In this document: in pieces, positions 29,415-35,763 of the stretch | Position numbering within the stretch: the stretch's first letter is position 1 | Layout: each line of letters opens with the position of its first letter | NCBI RefSeq assembly: GCF_002356295.1 | Contig: NZ_AP018042.1 | Location: 1,954,361-2,018,360, forward strand | DNA: 64,000 nt | Direction of reading: 5' to 3' | DNA from: Labilibaculum antarcticum | GTDB taxonomy: Bacteria; Bacteroidota; Bacteroidia; Bacteroidales; Marinifilaceae | Made by a program: the position numbers and the translations under genes | The notes under the pieces: generated by a model | Database searches by the model: none | What the model saw: the letters and a program-made list of their open reading frames with translations, nothing else | What the model was told of the DNA's origin: nothing

Positions 29415-31901
29415 ATGGAAAGTAATTTACAACTGGATCTGGCTCACAAGTTTGTACGATTCACAAACACCACAATTTTCTTAACGGGTAAGGCCGGTAC
29501 CGGAAAAACTACCTTTTTACGTCAGTTAAAAGGGGAACTGCCCAAGCGAATGGTTGTTGTTGCACCAACTGGTGTGGCGGCCATTAATGCAGGTGGTGTA
29601 ACTATTCATTCCTTTTTCCAGTTGCCTTTTGGCCCCATATTACCGGGACAAATTCTTAATGAGGAGAAAAACCCCAAAAAGGAATCCAATTCACCAATCC
29701 GGAAATACCGAAAAGAAAAAATCGATATTATAAAATCTCTCGACCTTCTGATTATTGATGAAATTAGTATGGTTAGGGCCGATTTGCTGGATGGAATTGA
29801 CGAAGTTCTGCGCAAATTTAAAAACAGAAACCTGCCTTTTGGTGGTGTTCAGATTTTGATGATTGGCGATTTACAACAATTGCCTCCGGTAGTGAAAAAT
29901 GAAGAATGGAGTTTGCTTCGGAATCATTACGAAACCCCTTTCTTTTTTAGCAGTCGTGCATTTCTGCAATCACAACACATCAGTATCGAACTGCAACATG
30001 TATATCGTCAAAACGATGAGAAGTTTATTAATATTCTGAACGAAATACGAAACAATAAGCTCTCCCAAGCATCTTATCAGGAATTGGAAAAGAGATATTT
30101 ACCCAATTTTAATCCGACCGATAAGGATGGCTACATTACCCTAACAACACACAATGCCAGAGCTCAAAAAATAAATGAAGAAAAACTGAAGCAAATAAAG
30201 GGAAAGTCGCAACAGTTTAAAGCTAATATTACAGGAATATTTCCCGAATACTCCTTTCCCACCGAAGAGCAATTGCAACTTAAAGTAGGTGCACAGGTAA
30301 TGTTCGTGAAAAATGACAGTTCGCCTGAAAAACTATTCTTTAACGGCAAAATAGGAACGGTTAGCAGTTTTGGCGATGACGTAATTCATGTGAAATGTGA
30401 AACCGATAATTTCGAAATTGATGTGTATCCGGAGGATTGGCACAACGTTAAATACAGTATCAACGAGGCAAGTAAAGAAATTGAAGAAACAATTTCGGGC
30501 GGTTTTTCACAGTTCCCATTAAAGCTGGCCTGGGCAATTACCATTCATAAAAGTCAGGGATTGACTTTCGAAAGAGCAGTGATCGATGCCAATGCAGCCT
30601 TTGCCCACGGACAAGTTTACGTGGCCTTGAGTCGCTGTAAATCACTGGAAGGATTGGTTCTTAAATCAACCTTAAGTAAATCGGGCATTATTTGCGATAC
30701 TGCCGTATCAAAATTCACACAAAATATTGAAGCAAATCCTCCGGGGGAAGCAAATCTGGATAATTCCATTCGCAAGTATCAGTTTCAGCTTCTCGAAGAA
30801 CTGTTTTCTTTTCATGATATCTACCGAATCTGCAACTATTGCAACAAGCATTTACAGGAAAACAGGAACAGTATTCAGGGAAATTTGCCCGATAAGATGA
30901 ATGCGGCCTTTCCATTTCTGGGACCGGAAATTTTGGTGATGGGAGAAAAATTTATTCCATCCTTAAAACGGTATTGTACCGATAGTGAGGGCATTCATGA
31001 ACACAAAGAGGCGCAGGAAAGAATCAGTAAAGCATCGGCCTACTTTGTGGGTAAACTAGAGGAACATCTGCAATCAGTTCTAAAAGATTTTAGTTTCGAC
31101 AGCGATAATCAGGGTATAAAAAAAGTAATTGAGGGTCATTTGAAACAGTTGAATGAAAAGCTAAGTGTTAAGCTTGTTAGTTTAAAATCGTGTTTGAAAA
31201 AATTCGATACTGCGGCTTATCAAACTGTGCGGGCCAAAGCTCATTTCGAGAAGCAAGCTTTCCATTTAAAGAGCCCCAAAGATGTCGTTGATGAGAATGT
31301 AAAACATCCGAATTTATTTCGAATACTAAAGAAATGGAGAAAGAATCTGGCCGATAAAATAAATGCGCCGGTTTATTACATTGCTTCGCAGCAAAGTCTG
31401 GTTGATATTGCCAACAATCTGCCCTACACTGCCGAACAGCTGAAAGATGTGAAAGGCTTTGGAAAGAAAAAAATTGAGCGATACGGGGCTGATGTGATCC
31501 GAATGGTTTCGGAATATCGCCAGGGACAAAATTTGGGTTTGTTGAATTTTACGGCTGCAGCACCATCTGCGGCAAAAACACCAACAAAAAAACCAGCCAC
31601 CAAACAAGATACGAAAGAGGTGAGTTTGGAAATGTATCAGGATGGAAGAAATGTAAGGGAGATTGCGGCCTTTCGGGATCTTACTGTGGCTACCATCGAA
31701 AAACATTTAGCCCATTACGTTGGCTTGGGCATGCTGTCTCTCGATAAATTTGTAGAAAAAAAGAAGATCAAAAAAATTAAAAAGCAGCTTGAAAAAGAAG
31801 GCATTGAAAGCCTAAATGAGTGCAAAAAAGAACTTGGTTCTGATTACTCCTACTCTGAAATTAGATATGTTCAGGCTTTTTTGAAAAATGCAAAATCGTA
31901 G
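29415..31901 (+). CDS. PIF1-type superfamily 1 helicase with HRDC and C-terminal HTH domains
   Basis: This protein has 828 residues. The N-terminal 430 form a PIF1/RecD-like SF1B helicase: Walker A GKAGTGKTTFLRQL, Walker B LLIIDEISMV, the GDLQQLPPVV sensor, and motif VI VYVALSRCKSLEGL. After a linker with a CNYC pair comes an HRDC-like domain (about 640-705, YIASQQSLVDIANNLPYT, then a helix-hairpin turn VKGFGKKKIERYG). A low-complexity hinge leads to an HTH_40-type domain (about 735-828). It probably unwinds DNA or forks; G-quadruplex or recombination roles are family-based inference. The last ~20 codons are copied several times downstream in the adjoining repeat array. Confidence 0.93.
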   Translation: MESNLQLDLAHKFVRFTNTTIFLTGKAGTGKTTFLRQLKGELPKRMVVVAPTGVAAINAGGVTIHSFFQLPFGPILPGQILNEEKNPKKESNSPIRKYRKEKIDIIKSLDLLIIDEISMVRADLLDGIDEVLRKFKNRNLPFGGVQILMIGDLQQLPPVVKNEEWSLLRNHYETPFFFSSRAFLQSQHISIELQHVYRQNDEKFINILNEIRNNKLSQASYQELEKRYLPNFNPTDKDGYITLTTHNARAQKINEEKLKQIKGKSQQFKANITGIFPEYSFPTEEQLQLKVGAQVMFVKNDSSPEKLFFNGKIGTVSSFGDDVIHVKCETDNFEIDVYPEDWHNVKYSINEASKEIEETISGGFSQFPLKLAWAITIHKSQGLTFERAVIDANAAFAHGQVYVALSRCKSLEGLVLKSTLSKSGIICDTAVSKFTQNIEANPPGEANLDNSIRKYQFQLLEELFSFHDIYRICNYCNKHLQENRNSIQGNLPDKMNAAFPFLGPEILVMGEKFIPSLKRYCTDSEGIHEHKEAQERISKASAYFVGKLEEHLQSVLKDFSFDSDNQGIKKVIEGHLKQLNEKLSVKLVSLKSCLKKFDTAAYQTVRAKAHFEKQAFHLKSPKDVVDENVKHPNLFRILKKWRKNLADKINAPVYYIASQQSLVDIANNLPYTAEQLKDVKGFGKKKIERYGADVIRMVSEYRQGQNLGLLNFTAAAPSAAKTPTKKPATKQDTKEVSLEMYQDGRNVREIAAFRDLTVATIEKHLAHYVGLGMLSLDKFVEKKKIKKIKKQLEKEGIESLNECKKELGSDYSYSEIRYVQAFLKNAKS

Positions 31902-32100
31902 AGAAAAACATGATATTTTAAGTTTCCTTAACTTTAATTCAATCCTTTTAGCACTCCAATGCACTACATTTGGAAGGTAGAAACTGTAGAGTTTTTTCAT
32001 AGATTAGGTTTAGGTTAGTAATTAGGATTAGAGAAAATCCCAGGCTTCACAGTCTGGGATTTTTCTATTTATTGGAAATCATTTTATGTGTATTCTATTC
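31902..32100 (+). repeat. Repeat unit A of the helicase-tail array (candidate small RNA)
   Basis: This is the first unit, directly after the helicase stop. It contains a conserved block around TTAAG TTTC CTTAA, a -7 box TACATTTG (31965-31972) and a short hairpin AAACT/AGTTT around GTAG (31981-31994). A stretch rich in TTAGGTTAG follows, then a 12-bp terminator hairpin (32035-32062) with T tail. Promoter box to terminator would give an RNA of about 85 nt without an open frame. No clear -33 TTG is present. Confidence 0.6.
32035..32064 (+). terminator. Terminator hairpin of repeat unit A
   Basis: The arms AAATCCCAGGCT and AGTCTGGGATTT (one G-T pair) close a TCAC tetraloop and are followed by T residues. 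It serves the helicase transcript or a small RNA. Confidence 0.85.
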
Positions 32101-32402
32101 AACCTAGTTCTGATCCCTCCTACTCTAAAATAAGTTTTGTTCAGGCTTATCTGAAAAATTAGAATATAAAACAATACCAATACGAACGTCAAAACATAAA
32201 TGGGTTCAGCTGATGATCTTTTAAGTTTCCTTAACTTTAATTCAATCAATTTAGCACTCCAATACACTAGATTTATATCAGACAATAAGAGATAGTTTTT
32301 TCATAGATTAGATTTAGGTTAGTAATTTAGGTTAGAGAAAATCCCAGGCTTCACAGTCTGGGATTTTTCTATTTATTGGAAATCATTTTATGTATATTCT
32401 AT
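32101..32402 (+). repeat. Repeat unit B of the helicase-tail array
   Basis: It opens with a copy of the helicase 3' end (32107-32163) that still encodes S-Y-S-K-I-x-F-V-Q-A-Y-L-K-N before a TAG. The small-RNA-like block follows, but its -7 box has decayed to TAGATTTA (32268-32275). The terminator hairpin (32339-32368) is intact. The distance from unit A is 303 bp. Confidence 0.75.
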
Positions 32403-32712
32403 TCAACCTAGTTCTGATCCCTCCTACTCTAAAATAAGTTTTGTTCAGGCTTATCTGAAAAATGCAAATACAAAATAATACCAATACTCGCTTCATCACA
32501 TAAATGGGTTCAGTTGATGATCTTTTAAGTTTCCTTAACTTTAATTCAATCCTTTTAGCACTCCAATGCACTATATTTATATCAGACAAAAAGAGATAGA
32601 TTTTTCATAGATTAGATTTAGGTTAGTAATTAGGTTTAGAGAAAATCCCGGGCTTCACAGCTCGGGATTTTTTGATTCCCCCTACTCGATTCCCTCCATT
32701 CTAAAATTTAAA
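32403..32712 (+). repeat. Repeat unit C of the helicase-tail array
   Basis: It again begins with the helicase tail (ending L-K-N-A-N-T-K and a stop). The -7 position reads TATATTTA. The terminator hairpin at 32643-32673 has changed at several positions, yet every pair is kept: an A-T pair became G-C and a G-T pair became G-C. It is 304 bp downstream of unit B. Confidence 0.75.
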
Positions 32713-32738
32713 ATGCCACAAAATCACATGCAAAATAC

Positions 32739-32776
32739 TTGTCATGACAATTAAAACCATATATTTGTCATGACAA
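32739..32776 (+). promoter_or_regulatory. marR promoter with two identical palindromic operators
   Basis: The perfect 12-bp palindrome TTGTCATGACAA occurs at 32739-32750 and 32765-32776. The first contains the -33 TTG and the second overlaps the -7 box TATATTTG (32760-32767). Transcription would start near 32775, after the upstream ATG at 32770. Confidence 0.8.
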
Positions 32777-32787
32777 ATACTTACAGT

Positions 32788-33234
32788 ATGAACAAAGTAA
32801 ACTTAGAAACATCAGTAAACCACCATATTGCAATAAGTGCAATCATGATAAAACGAGTCTTCTTTAAAATATTAAGCAGAAACAAACTCAACATTACACC
32901 CGAGCAATGGAATGTTTTATATCACTTAACAGAATCGGATGGCATGACAATAGGTGAATTAAGCGGACTTACCTACAAAGATTTTGCAAACATGAGTAGA
33001 ATGACTCAAAAGCTTGAAATTGCCGGTTTTATAGAAAAAAAAAGAGATGAAACTGACAAAAGAATATTCAAATTATTTATTAGCCCCAAAGGCAAAGAGA
33101 TAAATGAACAAGTTCAGCAATGTGCTTTCGAATCAACAAATATTGCTTTAGAAGGAACTGATGAAGCAAGCAAAGAAATACTGCTTAAAAGTCTTAAACA
33201 AGTCATTGTCAACACCGAAACATTTCTAAAATAA
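32788..33234 (+). CDS. MarR family transcriptional regulator
   Basis: This 148-residue winged-helix protein has the MarR core: LNITPEQWNVLYHLTESDGMTIGELS, the recognition helix ANMSRMTQKLEIAGFIEKKRDETDKR, and the wing RIFKLFISPKGKEI, flanked by dimerisation helices. The frame also has an ATG at 32770, but that lies within the operator and before the expected transcription start, so 32788 is chosen. Two 12-bp palindromes over the promoter indicate autorepression. It is followed 5 bp later by a membrane protein, and the pair sits between repeat units C and D. Confidence 0.92.
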   Translation: MNKVNLETSVNHHIAISAIMIKRVFFKILSRNKLNITPEQWNVLYHLTESDGMTIGELSGLTYKDFANMSRMTQKLEIAGFIEKKRDETDKRIFKLFISPKGKEINEQVQQCAFESTNIALEGTDEASKEILLKSLKQVIVNTETFLK

Positions 33235-33239
33235 AATAC

Positions 33240-33746
33240 ATGAAACAACTGTCGATCACCCAAAAGAAATGGCTTAAATCAATCCATCTTTTAGCCGCTG
33301 GAATATGGATAACAACAGGCTTAATCATGTTCCTTTTGCACTTTATGCACAACGAAGTACAAACTGGAGATCAATTGCATCTGCTAAATAAAATCATCCA
33401 TTTTATTGATATGAAAATCCTGGTTCCATCAGCAGTAGTAAGCTTACTCACCGGATGGATTTATTCGCAATTTACAAAATGGGGATACTTTCAACATGGC
33501 TGGATCACATTTAAATGGATCATTACTTTACTGATAATTATACTTGGTTCCATATATTCAGGACCCTGGATAGCCGAAATGGTTAAAATATCAGGTGAAC
33601 TGGGCATGGCTGCACTTAGCAATACCGAATACCAATGGTATGACAAATGGCAAACAGTAATGGGAATCTGCATGAATGGCACACTAATTTTCACCATTTT
33701 CTTATCCGTATTTAAACCTTGGAAATCAAACAAGAAAATATCTTAG
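33240..33746 (+). CDS. Four-helix integral membrane protein (DUF2269-like)
   Basis: This 168-residue protein has four hydrophobic segments (about 14-33, 58-77, 88-107 and 138-157). The N-terminal KKWLKSIHLLAAGIWITTG resembles the DUF2269/CopD-like pattern with a conserved His in the first helix; this family assignment is moderate. It is cotranscribed with the MarR gene and is the only other gene of that operon, so it is the likely regulated target. Such membrane proteins are of unknown function; no transport or enzymatic motif is seen. Confidence 0.7.
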   Translation: MKQLSITQKKWLKSIHLLAAGIWITTGLIMFLLHFMHNEVQTGDQLHLLNKIIHFIDMKILVPSAVVSLLTGWIYSQFTKWGYFQHGWITFKWIITLLIIILGSIYSGPWIAEMVKISGELGMAALSNTEYQWYDKWQTVMGICMNGTLIFTIFLSVFKPWKSNKKIS

Positions 33747-33847
33747 TTCAATCTTGAATCAACCCAATTAACCAGATAGTTTTCAAGCTTTAAGCAATTA
33801 TGCTATTCGTTCAATTTAAACAACAACCTATTTCTACAAAAGCCAAT

Positions 33848-34115
33848 GAACTTTTAAGTTTCCTTAACTTTAATTCAATCCTTTTAGCACTACTATGCAC
33901 TACATTTGTAAGGTAGAAACGGTAGCGTTTTTTCATAGATTAGATTTAGGTTAGTAATTTAGGTTAGAGAAAATCCCAGGCTTCACAGTCTGGGATTTTT
34001 CTATTTATTGGAAATCATTTTATGTATATTCTATTCAACTTGATTCTGATCCCTCCTACTCTAAAATAAGATTTATTCAGGTTTATCTGAAAAATGCGAA
34101 TATAAAATAATGGAT
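33848..34115 (+). repeat. Repeat unit D of the helicase-tail array
   Basis: It has an intact -7 box TACATTTG (33901-33908) and a 5' hairpin AAACG/CGTTT around GTAG (33917-33930), in which a T-A pair of unit A has become G-C. The terminator hairpin lies at 33971-34000. A further helicase-tail copy follows (34041-34110), still ending L-K-N-A-N-I-K and a stop. Confidence 0.75.
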
Positions 34116-34214
34116 CAGGAGATAATTTTGGGTCTCCTTACTAATCAGGCATAAATTGCAGTCAAGCGAAAAGGGAAGTATTTTACATTCATCCTTTTGT
34201 TATCATTTTTTCTC

Positions 34215-34276
34215 GAGCCTGAAGGGCTCATATATAATAGCCCAGGGTAAATGAGCACAGCGAATGCCACCCTGGG
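34215..34276. repeat. REP-like double hairpin
   Basis: A small hairpin GAGCC/GGCTC (34215-34229) is followed by arms CCCAGGGT (34241-34248) and ACCCTGGG (34269-34276). Paired palindromes of this kind are typical of intergenic REP-like elements; no transposase is nearby. Confidence 0.5.
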
Positions 34277-34784
34277 ATATTAATGTGATAGTAAGTCCAG
34301 ACGCAAGGAAAAAAAACATTTGGAAAGCAATTCACATTTGCGTCGGAATAGCAAAAAACTTATTCTCAAAGCTTGAAAAGTTGGAATCTAGACCTTAGGA
34401 CAGTTCCGATAATTCGTGAGTCAAAGCTTGATTTTAGGATGGTTTTGAATGTTACCAATTTTCAATAAAAGGAGTGAACCTCATTATTTCTTGCTTGTCC
34501 TTTAGCCGGACGGGCTTTTCATTTTTTCTAGGATAAAAAACGAAACAAAAAATCATTGACAACGTCCTCAATCACCCGTTACTAGTTCGATTGCTAAACA
34601 AAAAGAACTCGCTACGCTCAAACAACTTTTTGTTCTTAACGCTCTCTTCACTAAACGGGTCCCGATCTCCGGACTCAATGTCGAATCTACATCCTCGAAA
34701 GATTGCGATTTTGCATATTCATGAACTTAAAATTATAGCTAATTCAAATCTCAGGCCCAACTTTTACCGGTGATCCAAAATAAT
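34277..34784. other. Noncoding stretch between repeat units D and E
   Basis: About 500 bp with no supported gene. A 60-codon open frame at 34591-34773 has no recognisable family and unlikely composition. A hairpin around AAAAAGAAC ... GTTCTT-type sequence near 34600-34640 is reminiscent of intergenic repeats. Confidence 0.4.
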
Positions 34785-34972
34785 ACCAATACGAACTTCA
34801 TCACATAGATGAGTTCATCTGATGATCTTTTAAGTTTCCTTAACTTTAATTCAATCCTTTTAGCACTTCAATGCACTACATTTGGAAGGTACAAAGACAA
34901 GAAAATATTTTCATAGGTTAGATTTAGGTTAGAGAAAATCCCAGACTTCGCAGTCTGGGATTTTTCTATTTA
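34785..34972 (+). repeat. Repeat unit E of the helicase-tail array
   Basis: It has the conserved block with an intact -7 box TACATTTG (34877-34884), a shortened TTAGGTTAG region, and a terminator hairpin (34936-34965) whose 12-bp stem is fully Watson-Crick: the G-T pair of unit A is A-T here, with loop TCGC. The helicase-tail part is reduced to flanking remnants. It lies about 105 bp before the DUF1289 gene. Confidence 0.72.
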
Positions 34973-35289: not shown

Positions 35290-35545
35290 ACTGGAAAACC
35301 ACATGGAAGCCACGTGTAGGGCAACCTCTTACCTCTAAAGAGCATGTTTTTGTAAGGAATACCAAAACATGTAAGGTATCTGTATTTAGCTGTAAGGGGA
35401 TCAAATCAATTGTAAGCAATATCCATTTACCTGTAAGGCATTATTAATTACAGTAAGGATTGCAAATTCGACCAATTTGAGTCATAAATCTTCACTTACC
35501 CGCGAGCAATAATGACTGAACAGCCTATATCTGTTGACTCGTTTT
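35290..35545. other. Repeat-rich noncoding DNA after DUF1289
   Basis: The heptamer TGTAAGG and close variants recur at irregular spacing between about 35355 and 35460. From 35451 to 35548 the sequence is a diverged copy of 39138-39235, the region just after the DUF5715 gene. No gene is supported. Confidence 0.55.
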
Positions 35546-35688
35546 GCTACAGGAGGGTGTTTTTGGCTACAGAAGCCTAATTTATGCTACAGGCGTTCCA
35601 TTTTAGCTACAGGAGCCCTAATTTATGCTACAGGCGTTCATTTTTGGCTACGGAAGTCATACTTTATCCTACAGGCGTTAAAAATGGA
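35546..35688 (+). repeat. Tandem repeat, seven units of about 20 bp
   Basis: Units start at 35546, 35566, 35586, 35606, 35627, 35647 and 35668. Each begins with GCTACAGG or a one-base variant. Two unit types alternate, one continuing with CGTT and the other with AG or AAG then a C-rich end, giving a higher-order period of about 41 bp. Confidence 0.85.
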
Positions 35689-35763
35689 CAACAGGAATAC
35701 CAATGCGAACAATGGAAATTGTTTTTTTTTCATTTGTGTTGCTAAAATATCGACCTGAATAAA

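Follow-up and report, generated by a model that had tools for sequence, protein, structure and literature searches.

The five repeat units that lie 3' of a PIF1-like helicase gene in the analysed window, a stretch of 64,000 nucleotides (nt) from the single-contig genome (5.72 Mb) of Labilibaculum antarcticum, probably belong to the FopS/GibS seed family of small RNAs (sRNAs) and form a Marinifilaceae branch of it, which is organised in tandem arrays, has a putative promoter of its own and would repress susC translation without RbpB. The first-pass annotation had proposed a five-copy repeat array resembling an undescribed small-RNA family. The array was recovered with five units at 31916-34965, and the assignment to a structured sRNA gene family stands, with ten further units of at least 43 bits located beside other genes. 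The attribute "undescribed" had to be dropped, since the seed is that of Bacteroides FopS/GibS (RF04319). We therefore regard the units as a new branch within an already known type of sRNA and not as a categorically new one. Each unit extends from a promoter block to a T tail; the starts of the transcript spans are approximate:

31916-32064, plus strand: unit A; promoter 31916-31972 (phased TTAA-type blocks 31916-31964, TACATTTG box 31965-31972); transcript span 31973-32064 (leader with 5' hairpin, seed ~31992-32031, terminator 32034-32064)
32219-32368, plus strand: unit B; promoter 32219-32275 (box TAGATTTA 32268-32275); transcript span 32276-32368 (seed ~32296-32335, terminator 32338-32368)
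32523-32673, plus strand: unit C; promoter 32523-32579 (box TATATTTA 32572-32579); transcript span 32580-32673 (seed ~32600-32639, terminator 32642-32673)
33852-34000, plus strand: unit D; promoter 33852-33908 (box TACATTTG 33901-33908); transcript span 33909-34000 (5' hairpin, seed ~33928-33967, terminator 33970-34000)
34828-34965, plus strand: unit E, with 64 bits the weakest unit; promoter 34828-34884 (box TACATTTG 34877-34884); transcript span 34885-34965 (shortened core, terminator 34935-34965)

The alignment of the units comprises the promoter region, a variable leader, the conserved core TTTTCATAG.TTAG.TTTAGGTTAG and a terminator common to all five, with 81-94 nt between the end of the promoter box and the T tail. 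The seed UUUUUUCAUAGAUUAGAUUUAGGUUAGUAA is nearly invariant across the units and is conserved while the letters of the terminator change. In folding calculations all five window units surpassed their own shuffles (z -2.7 to -4.8). The stem changes listed in the first-pass annotation were seen again: a G-T pair of unit A is A-T in unit E and G-C in unit C, an A-T pair of unit A is G-C in unit C, and a single compensatory pair distinguishes the 5' hairpin of unit A from that of unit D. The 13 pairs of the terminator, compared across 101 distinct sequences, were kept in 96.4% of cells, and 11 of them had changed on both sides. The covariation score was 0.654, while shuffles gave 0.273 and slid partners no more than 0.175. 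It was obtained from an alignment which was fitted to the model, thus favouring the score, and which contains some genomes twice under two names; clearly different stems are nevertheless visible in its rows. As terminators must pair anyway, this covariation supports termination and not a particular function.

The 5' hairpin is common among the copies, and its 3' arm reaches into the seed's U run. The mean energy of 57 distinct leaders was -2.4 kcal/mol, while base shuffles averaged -1.0 kcal/mol; 49 leaders were below their own shuffle mean and 32 at or below -2 kcal/mol. Based on folding and covariation the RNA would thus consist of a 5' hairpin in many copies, a long and largely single-stranded seed and the terminator. 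A longer leader with seemingly one or two strong hairpins ahead of the seed characterises a sub-type found in loci L063, L064, L066-L068 and L103. A small peptide encoded inside the units was considered and rejected, as no plus-strand open reading frame (ORF) of at least 60 amino acids is present within any window unit; minus-strand ORFs of 62-68 amino acids overlap units A-C.

The units appear to be preceded by a promoter of their own type. The TAnnTTT[GA] box is intact as TACATTTG in units A, D and E and varied in B and C, as previously annotated. The absence of the usual Bacteroides -33 TTG, which had been named as a weakness, was confirmed; a TTAGC/TTAAC block takes its place, with more TTAA-type blocks upstream at constant spacing. 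The upstream regions of 11 units of the genome align without gaps and contain TTTTA, TTAAC, TT..A and TTA.C blocks spaced by roughly one helical turn, the first of which starts 49 nt ahead of the box. A model of this upstream stretch alone, excluding the RNA core, gave 14 hits with E<=1e-4 in the own genome (12 sites already known and two additional ones; next hit E 0.4), and a unit is located downstream of each of the 14, including those at L027 and L028, which only the promoter model had revealed. Of 173 matches in relatives, 150 were aligned and gave 121 distinct upstream-plus-unit stretches. The box was present in the searched span of 98 of them, 93 of which keep at least 12 of the 18 block positions; many of the 23 stretches lacking the box derive from Ancylomarina-type loci, whose leader is longer and where similar blocks are visible by eye. 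We take the upstream blocks and the box to be a putative dedicated control element.

The units are not restricted to the window. A DNA search of the own genome revealed seven further places, among them a second array on the minus strand at ~4.0015 Mb, with six units and one decayed unit, and a unit pair at ~2.0475 Mb; their terminator stems differ in letters and the core is identical. The decayed seventh unit closing the second array (L013, 2260-2333, minus strand, 30 bits) suggests birth and death of copies. In total, 15 units of at least 43 bits were located, five in the window and ten elsewhere (six in L013, two in L014, and one each in L027 and L028); the latter ten adjoin other genes, and the promoter is the same in most of them. 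A family model built from 12 own-genome units was matched 17 times with E<=0.1 in the own genome, and 93 of the 115 genomes searched contained matches. The match numbers were 4-17 in the nine genomes of the genus and 9-19 in the same-family genera g5, g7, g9 and g10; the searches over 40 genomes used stricter filters, with 41 candidates scored per genome. The exact core was detected in 32 stretches of named records from Marinifilum, Labilibaculum, Ancylomarina and one metagenome-assembled genome of the Marinifilaceae. The possibility that the hairpin is only the terminator of the helicase gene was ruled out by the units beside other genes, mostly with the same promoter. A phage-borne repeat was likewise rejected, given that the exact core pattern occurred in 0 viral contigs, a search which divergent copies would escape. 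Several near-identical sRNA genes, mostly in tandem and with a common pairing mode, are known as LhrC1-5 in Listeria, which belongs to another phylum and differs in sequence and targets. In the literature searched, no account joining Labilibaculum and sRNAs was found, and Marinifilaceae were not met in the small-RNA papers listed.

No match in the window reached the Rfam gathering thresholds. In a permissive scan RF04319 (BTncRNA_FopS, Bacteroides thetaiotaomicron) aligned over its whole length (model 1-71) to four of the five window units with 24.7-27.9 bits (threshold 56, E 0.22-0.93), unit E not being among the permissive matches listed, and to the second array with 24.4-29.5 bits; the best match listed in the own genome scored 29.6 bits. 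The other names of the permissive scan (rteR, BTnc231, STnc260, Acido-Lenti-1, MicC, BSnc120 and others) were all below threshold. Among the 115 genomes, the FopS model matched 61 with E<=0.1 and passed its threshold in ten, one of which (G050) is a same-family genome represented by a 13-kb contig, where contamination is possible. In array-bearing genomes several FopS-model hits coincide with the arrays, e.g. three on G016:C41 and three on G016:C11. Conversely, the family model matched all of the ten FopS loci fetched from the genomes over threshold at the FopS position (E 0.0007-0.1, rough values from a search of 28 kb).

Like FopS, the units are multi-copy sRNA genes (17 matches with E<=0.1 here), carry the seed UUUUUCAU.G..AUUAGAUUU.AGGUUA.UAA in the corresponding position, with the R1/R1' seed followed by the terminator, and appear to target susC start regions, here judged by complementarity. 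They differ from FopS by the extra 5' hairpin leader, the other promoter element, the tandem arrays and a seed lengthened at its 3' side by a second GGUUAG part. FopS is reported to be a Bacteroidaceae family which is bound in B. thetaiotaomicron by the RRM protein RbpB and occurs in 12-15 copies in Bacteroides (PMC11697453), its bile-salt-induced RNA being ~65-70 nt long (PMC11697453, PMC7366714), whereas the distance from box to T tail is 81-100 nt in the units and their genus is without an RRM protein match. GibS is characterised by an R1 seed shared with FopS, pairing across start codons and a long unstructured 5' seed (PMC7366714, PMC11697453). By description, it resembles the units in these three features and is set apart by its length of 145 nt, its single intergenic gene, the promoter PM2 and the second seed R2 (PMC7366714, PMC11697453). 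We read the relation between the units and FopS as common descent with strong divergence, suggested by the sequence comparison, with convergence as a lesser possibility.

The beginning of the seed, UUUUUUCAU, is the antisense of AUGAAAAAA, and the start regions of susC-type genes are the candidate targets. A TIGR04056 search of the own genome gave 57 matches, 32 of them above the cut-off, and 30 of these genes were fetched, replacing an earlier set of five. With seed W their start regions (-35 to +18) reached a mean pairing energy of -18.8 kcal/mol (24 of 30 at or below -16 kcal/mol), compared to -11.1 kcal/mol for other genes (250 of 1079) and -12.6 kcal/mol for signal-peptide-like genes (150 of 155). 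Five measures were compared for two seed types, and no shuffle (0/86 and 0/79) equalled the seed in any of them. Three seed versions in both the own genome and Marinifilum G016 (24 SusC genes above cut-off) were equalled by 0/200 shuffles in mean energy and by 0-2/200 in the count at or below -16 kcal/mol. In G043, a genome of the same family with RRM genes and without strong units, there was a slight lean that was not significant (21-52/200 by mean energy, 24-52/200 by count). The signal is confined to positions -35 to -1 (0/200 shuffles as extreme), as seen from the windows -60 to -26 (40/200) and +10 to +60 (151/200). A pattern search for the antisense with up to three mismatches gave 27 hits, 12 of which are the sRNA genes themselves; 12 of the other 15 begin an ORF of at least 150 amino acids (one with GTG), compared to 4 of 13 for one scrambled pattern, which is suggestive only. 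A SusC-type gene with one in-frame TAA was noticed at L250 (G000:C1:5506931-5509990), its start resembling that of the L244 gene.

The search for partner proteins gave no RRM_1 match in this genome or in the eight other genomes of the genus, where a divergent RRM could be missed, while 70 of the 115 genomes had matches; none of the 115 gave an Hfq match. Among the 56 genomes of the family, an RRM was detected in 0 of the 24 whose best unit match was strong (E<=1e-6) compared to 28 of the 32 others, where the cut was set after viewing the table and the RRM absences were obtained partly by subtraction (25 matchless genomes being unlisted). As the split amounts to 7 versus 10 by genus, it may reflect a single event. 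At the order level RRM and units can coexist (G084).

Taken together, the units would be genes for trans-acting sRNAs of ~75-95 nt which belong to the FopS/GibS seed family of the Bacteroidales and were multiplied in tandem. The dedicated promoter, with its phased TTAA-type blocks and the TAnnTTT[GA] box, may give rise to many near-identical RNAs. By complementarity, their seed is antisense to the start codon and the preceding 35 nt of most susC-type genes examined and should therefore block the entry of the ribosome, presumably lowering the SusC uptake systems in analogy to the measured action of FopS. Action without RbpB is proposed because no RRM protein and no Hfq were found in these genomes; this chaperone-free action and a common inducing signal are both inferred.

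Several points weigh against this reading. Transcription from the units and the repression of susC are deduced from sequence. Every FopS score in this genome (24-30 bits) is below Rfam's 56 bits. In a bulk test on 1084 crude gene starts (1.6 Mb) the seed was not clearly better than head-keeping shuffles (48 starts at or below -18 kcal/mol; 60 shuffles, mean 35, maximum 54), with SusC-type transporters being frequent among the best-pairing starts. The first SusC test, on five genes selected by a regular expression, gave a mixed result, with 7/39 and 6/31 shuffles attaining its rank measure and none its mean difference. Six of the 30 SusC starts pair more weakly than -16 kcal/mol with seed W, the start codons were called crudely, and since the SusC genes are paralogues the effective sample is smaller than 30. 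Finally, weaker promoter sites at other genes could have been missed because the promoter model scored no more than 150 of the 7663 first-look candidates in the own genome.

The most serious competitor is a separate sRNA family whose similar seed arose through shared targeting of susC start codons and not by descent from FopS. A seed antisense to AUGAAAAA could evolve repeatedly, and the low Rfam scores, the added 5' leader hairpin and the promoter model's failure to match any of the ten FopS loci would be in agreement with such an origin. However, seed, spacing and terminator are collinear in both search directions, and multi-copy genomes beyond the family are matched by both models, e.g. G084, which lies outside the family, has one RRM gene and gave 10 and 9 matches. 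Convergence therefore seems unlikely to us. It is less probable still that the units act as a sponge, in which many UUAG-rich single strands titrate an RNA-binding protein or another RNA and the pairing with susC is secondary. The very high copy number and the almost invariant UUAG-rich strand would suit a sponge, and UUAG/UAGG resembles motifs of RRM proteins. Yet no RRM protein was found in these genomes, a sponge does not predict antisense complementarity limited to susC leaders, and the mimic orientation gave no signal in the SusC leader (119/200 shuffles as extreme).

We give very little credit to repeats without an sRNA function, i.e. terminators of neighbouring genes or intergenic elements that spread. 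Parts of the 3' end of the helicase gene are present in duplicate in the array, so that duplication of this DNA does occur, and the copy number differs among relatives; both would fit. This reading is opposed by the units' own promoters at constant spacing, a seed that stays while the terminator letters vary, three conserved gene neighbourhoods and the complementarity to the susC leaders.

Going beyond the FopS/GibS-type reading preferred here, a chaperone-free FopS system can tentatively be envisaged, although we consider it rather less than an even prospect: without RRM proteins, which were absent or lost, the marine Marinifilaceae may have amplified the sRNA genes into tandem arrays controlled by a regulator of their own; a single signal would then repress most SusC systems at once by direct pairing, the leaders having co-evolved with the seed. 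If so, FopS action would be separable from RbpB and perhaps older. What was found is a FopS-type seed in another family of the Bacteroidales, arrayed and with matching susC leaders, in genomes without a detected RRM or Hfq. The need of long-seed Bacteroidota sRNAs for a chaperone thereby becomes testable; the finding also points to a broad glycan-uptake switch in marine bacteria and offers the promoter element as a handle on the inducing signal.

The genes neighbouring the units in the window are the following:

29415-31901, plus strand: PIF1-like helicase gene, HRDC and HTH_40 domains
32770-33234, plus strand: MarR-family gene, between units C and D
33240-33746, plus strand: small membrane-protein gene, between units C and D (DUF2269 slightly below cut-off)

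Pieces of the helicase 3' end recur among the units at 32101, 32405 and 34037 (83% identity), and the array therefore appears to have expanded through tandem duplication of the helicase end together with a unit. Of 61 loci searched, nine have a helicase orthologue beside units, two of these (L058 and L079) being one place. A pair of GC-rich hairpins located between units D and E gave a sub-threshold match to Rfam Acido-Lenti-1 (34215-34276, minus strand, 24.2 bits, threshold 37), and a degenerate 41-base direct repeat (GCTACAGG..) without relation to the units is located at 35536-35698. The MarR-family gene and the small membrane-protein gene were both found again in L093, L097, L099 and L106. 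Two near-palindromic TTGTCATGACAA-type repeats at 32733-32782, directly upstream of the MarR-family gene (32770), are probably its operator.

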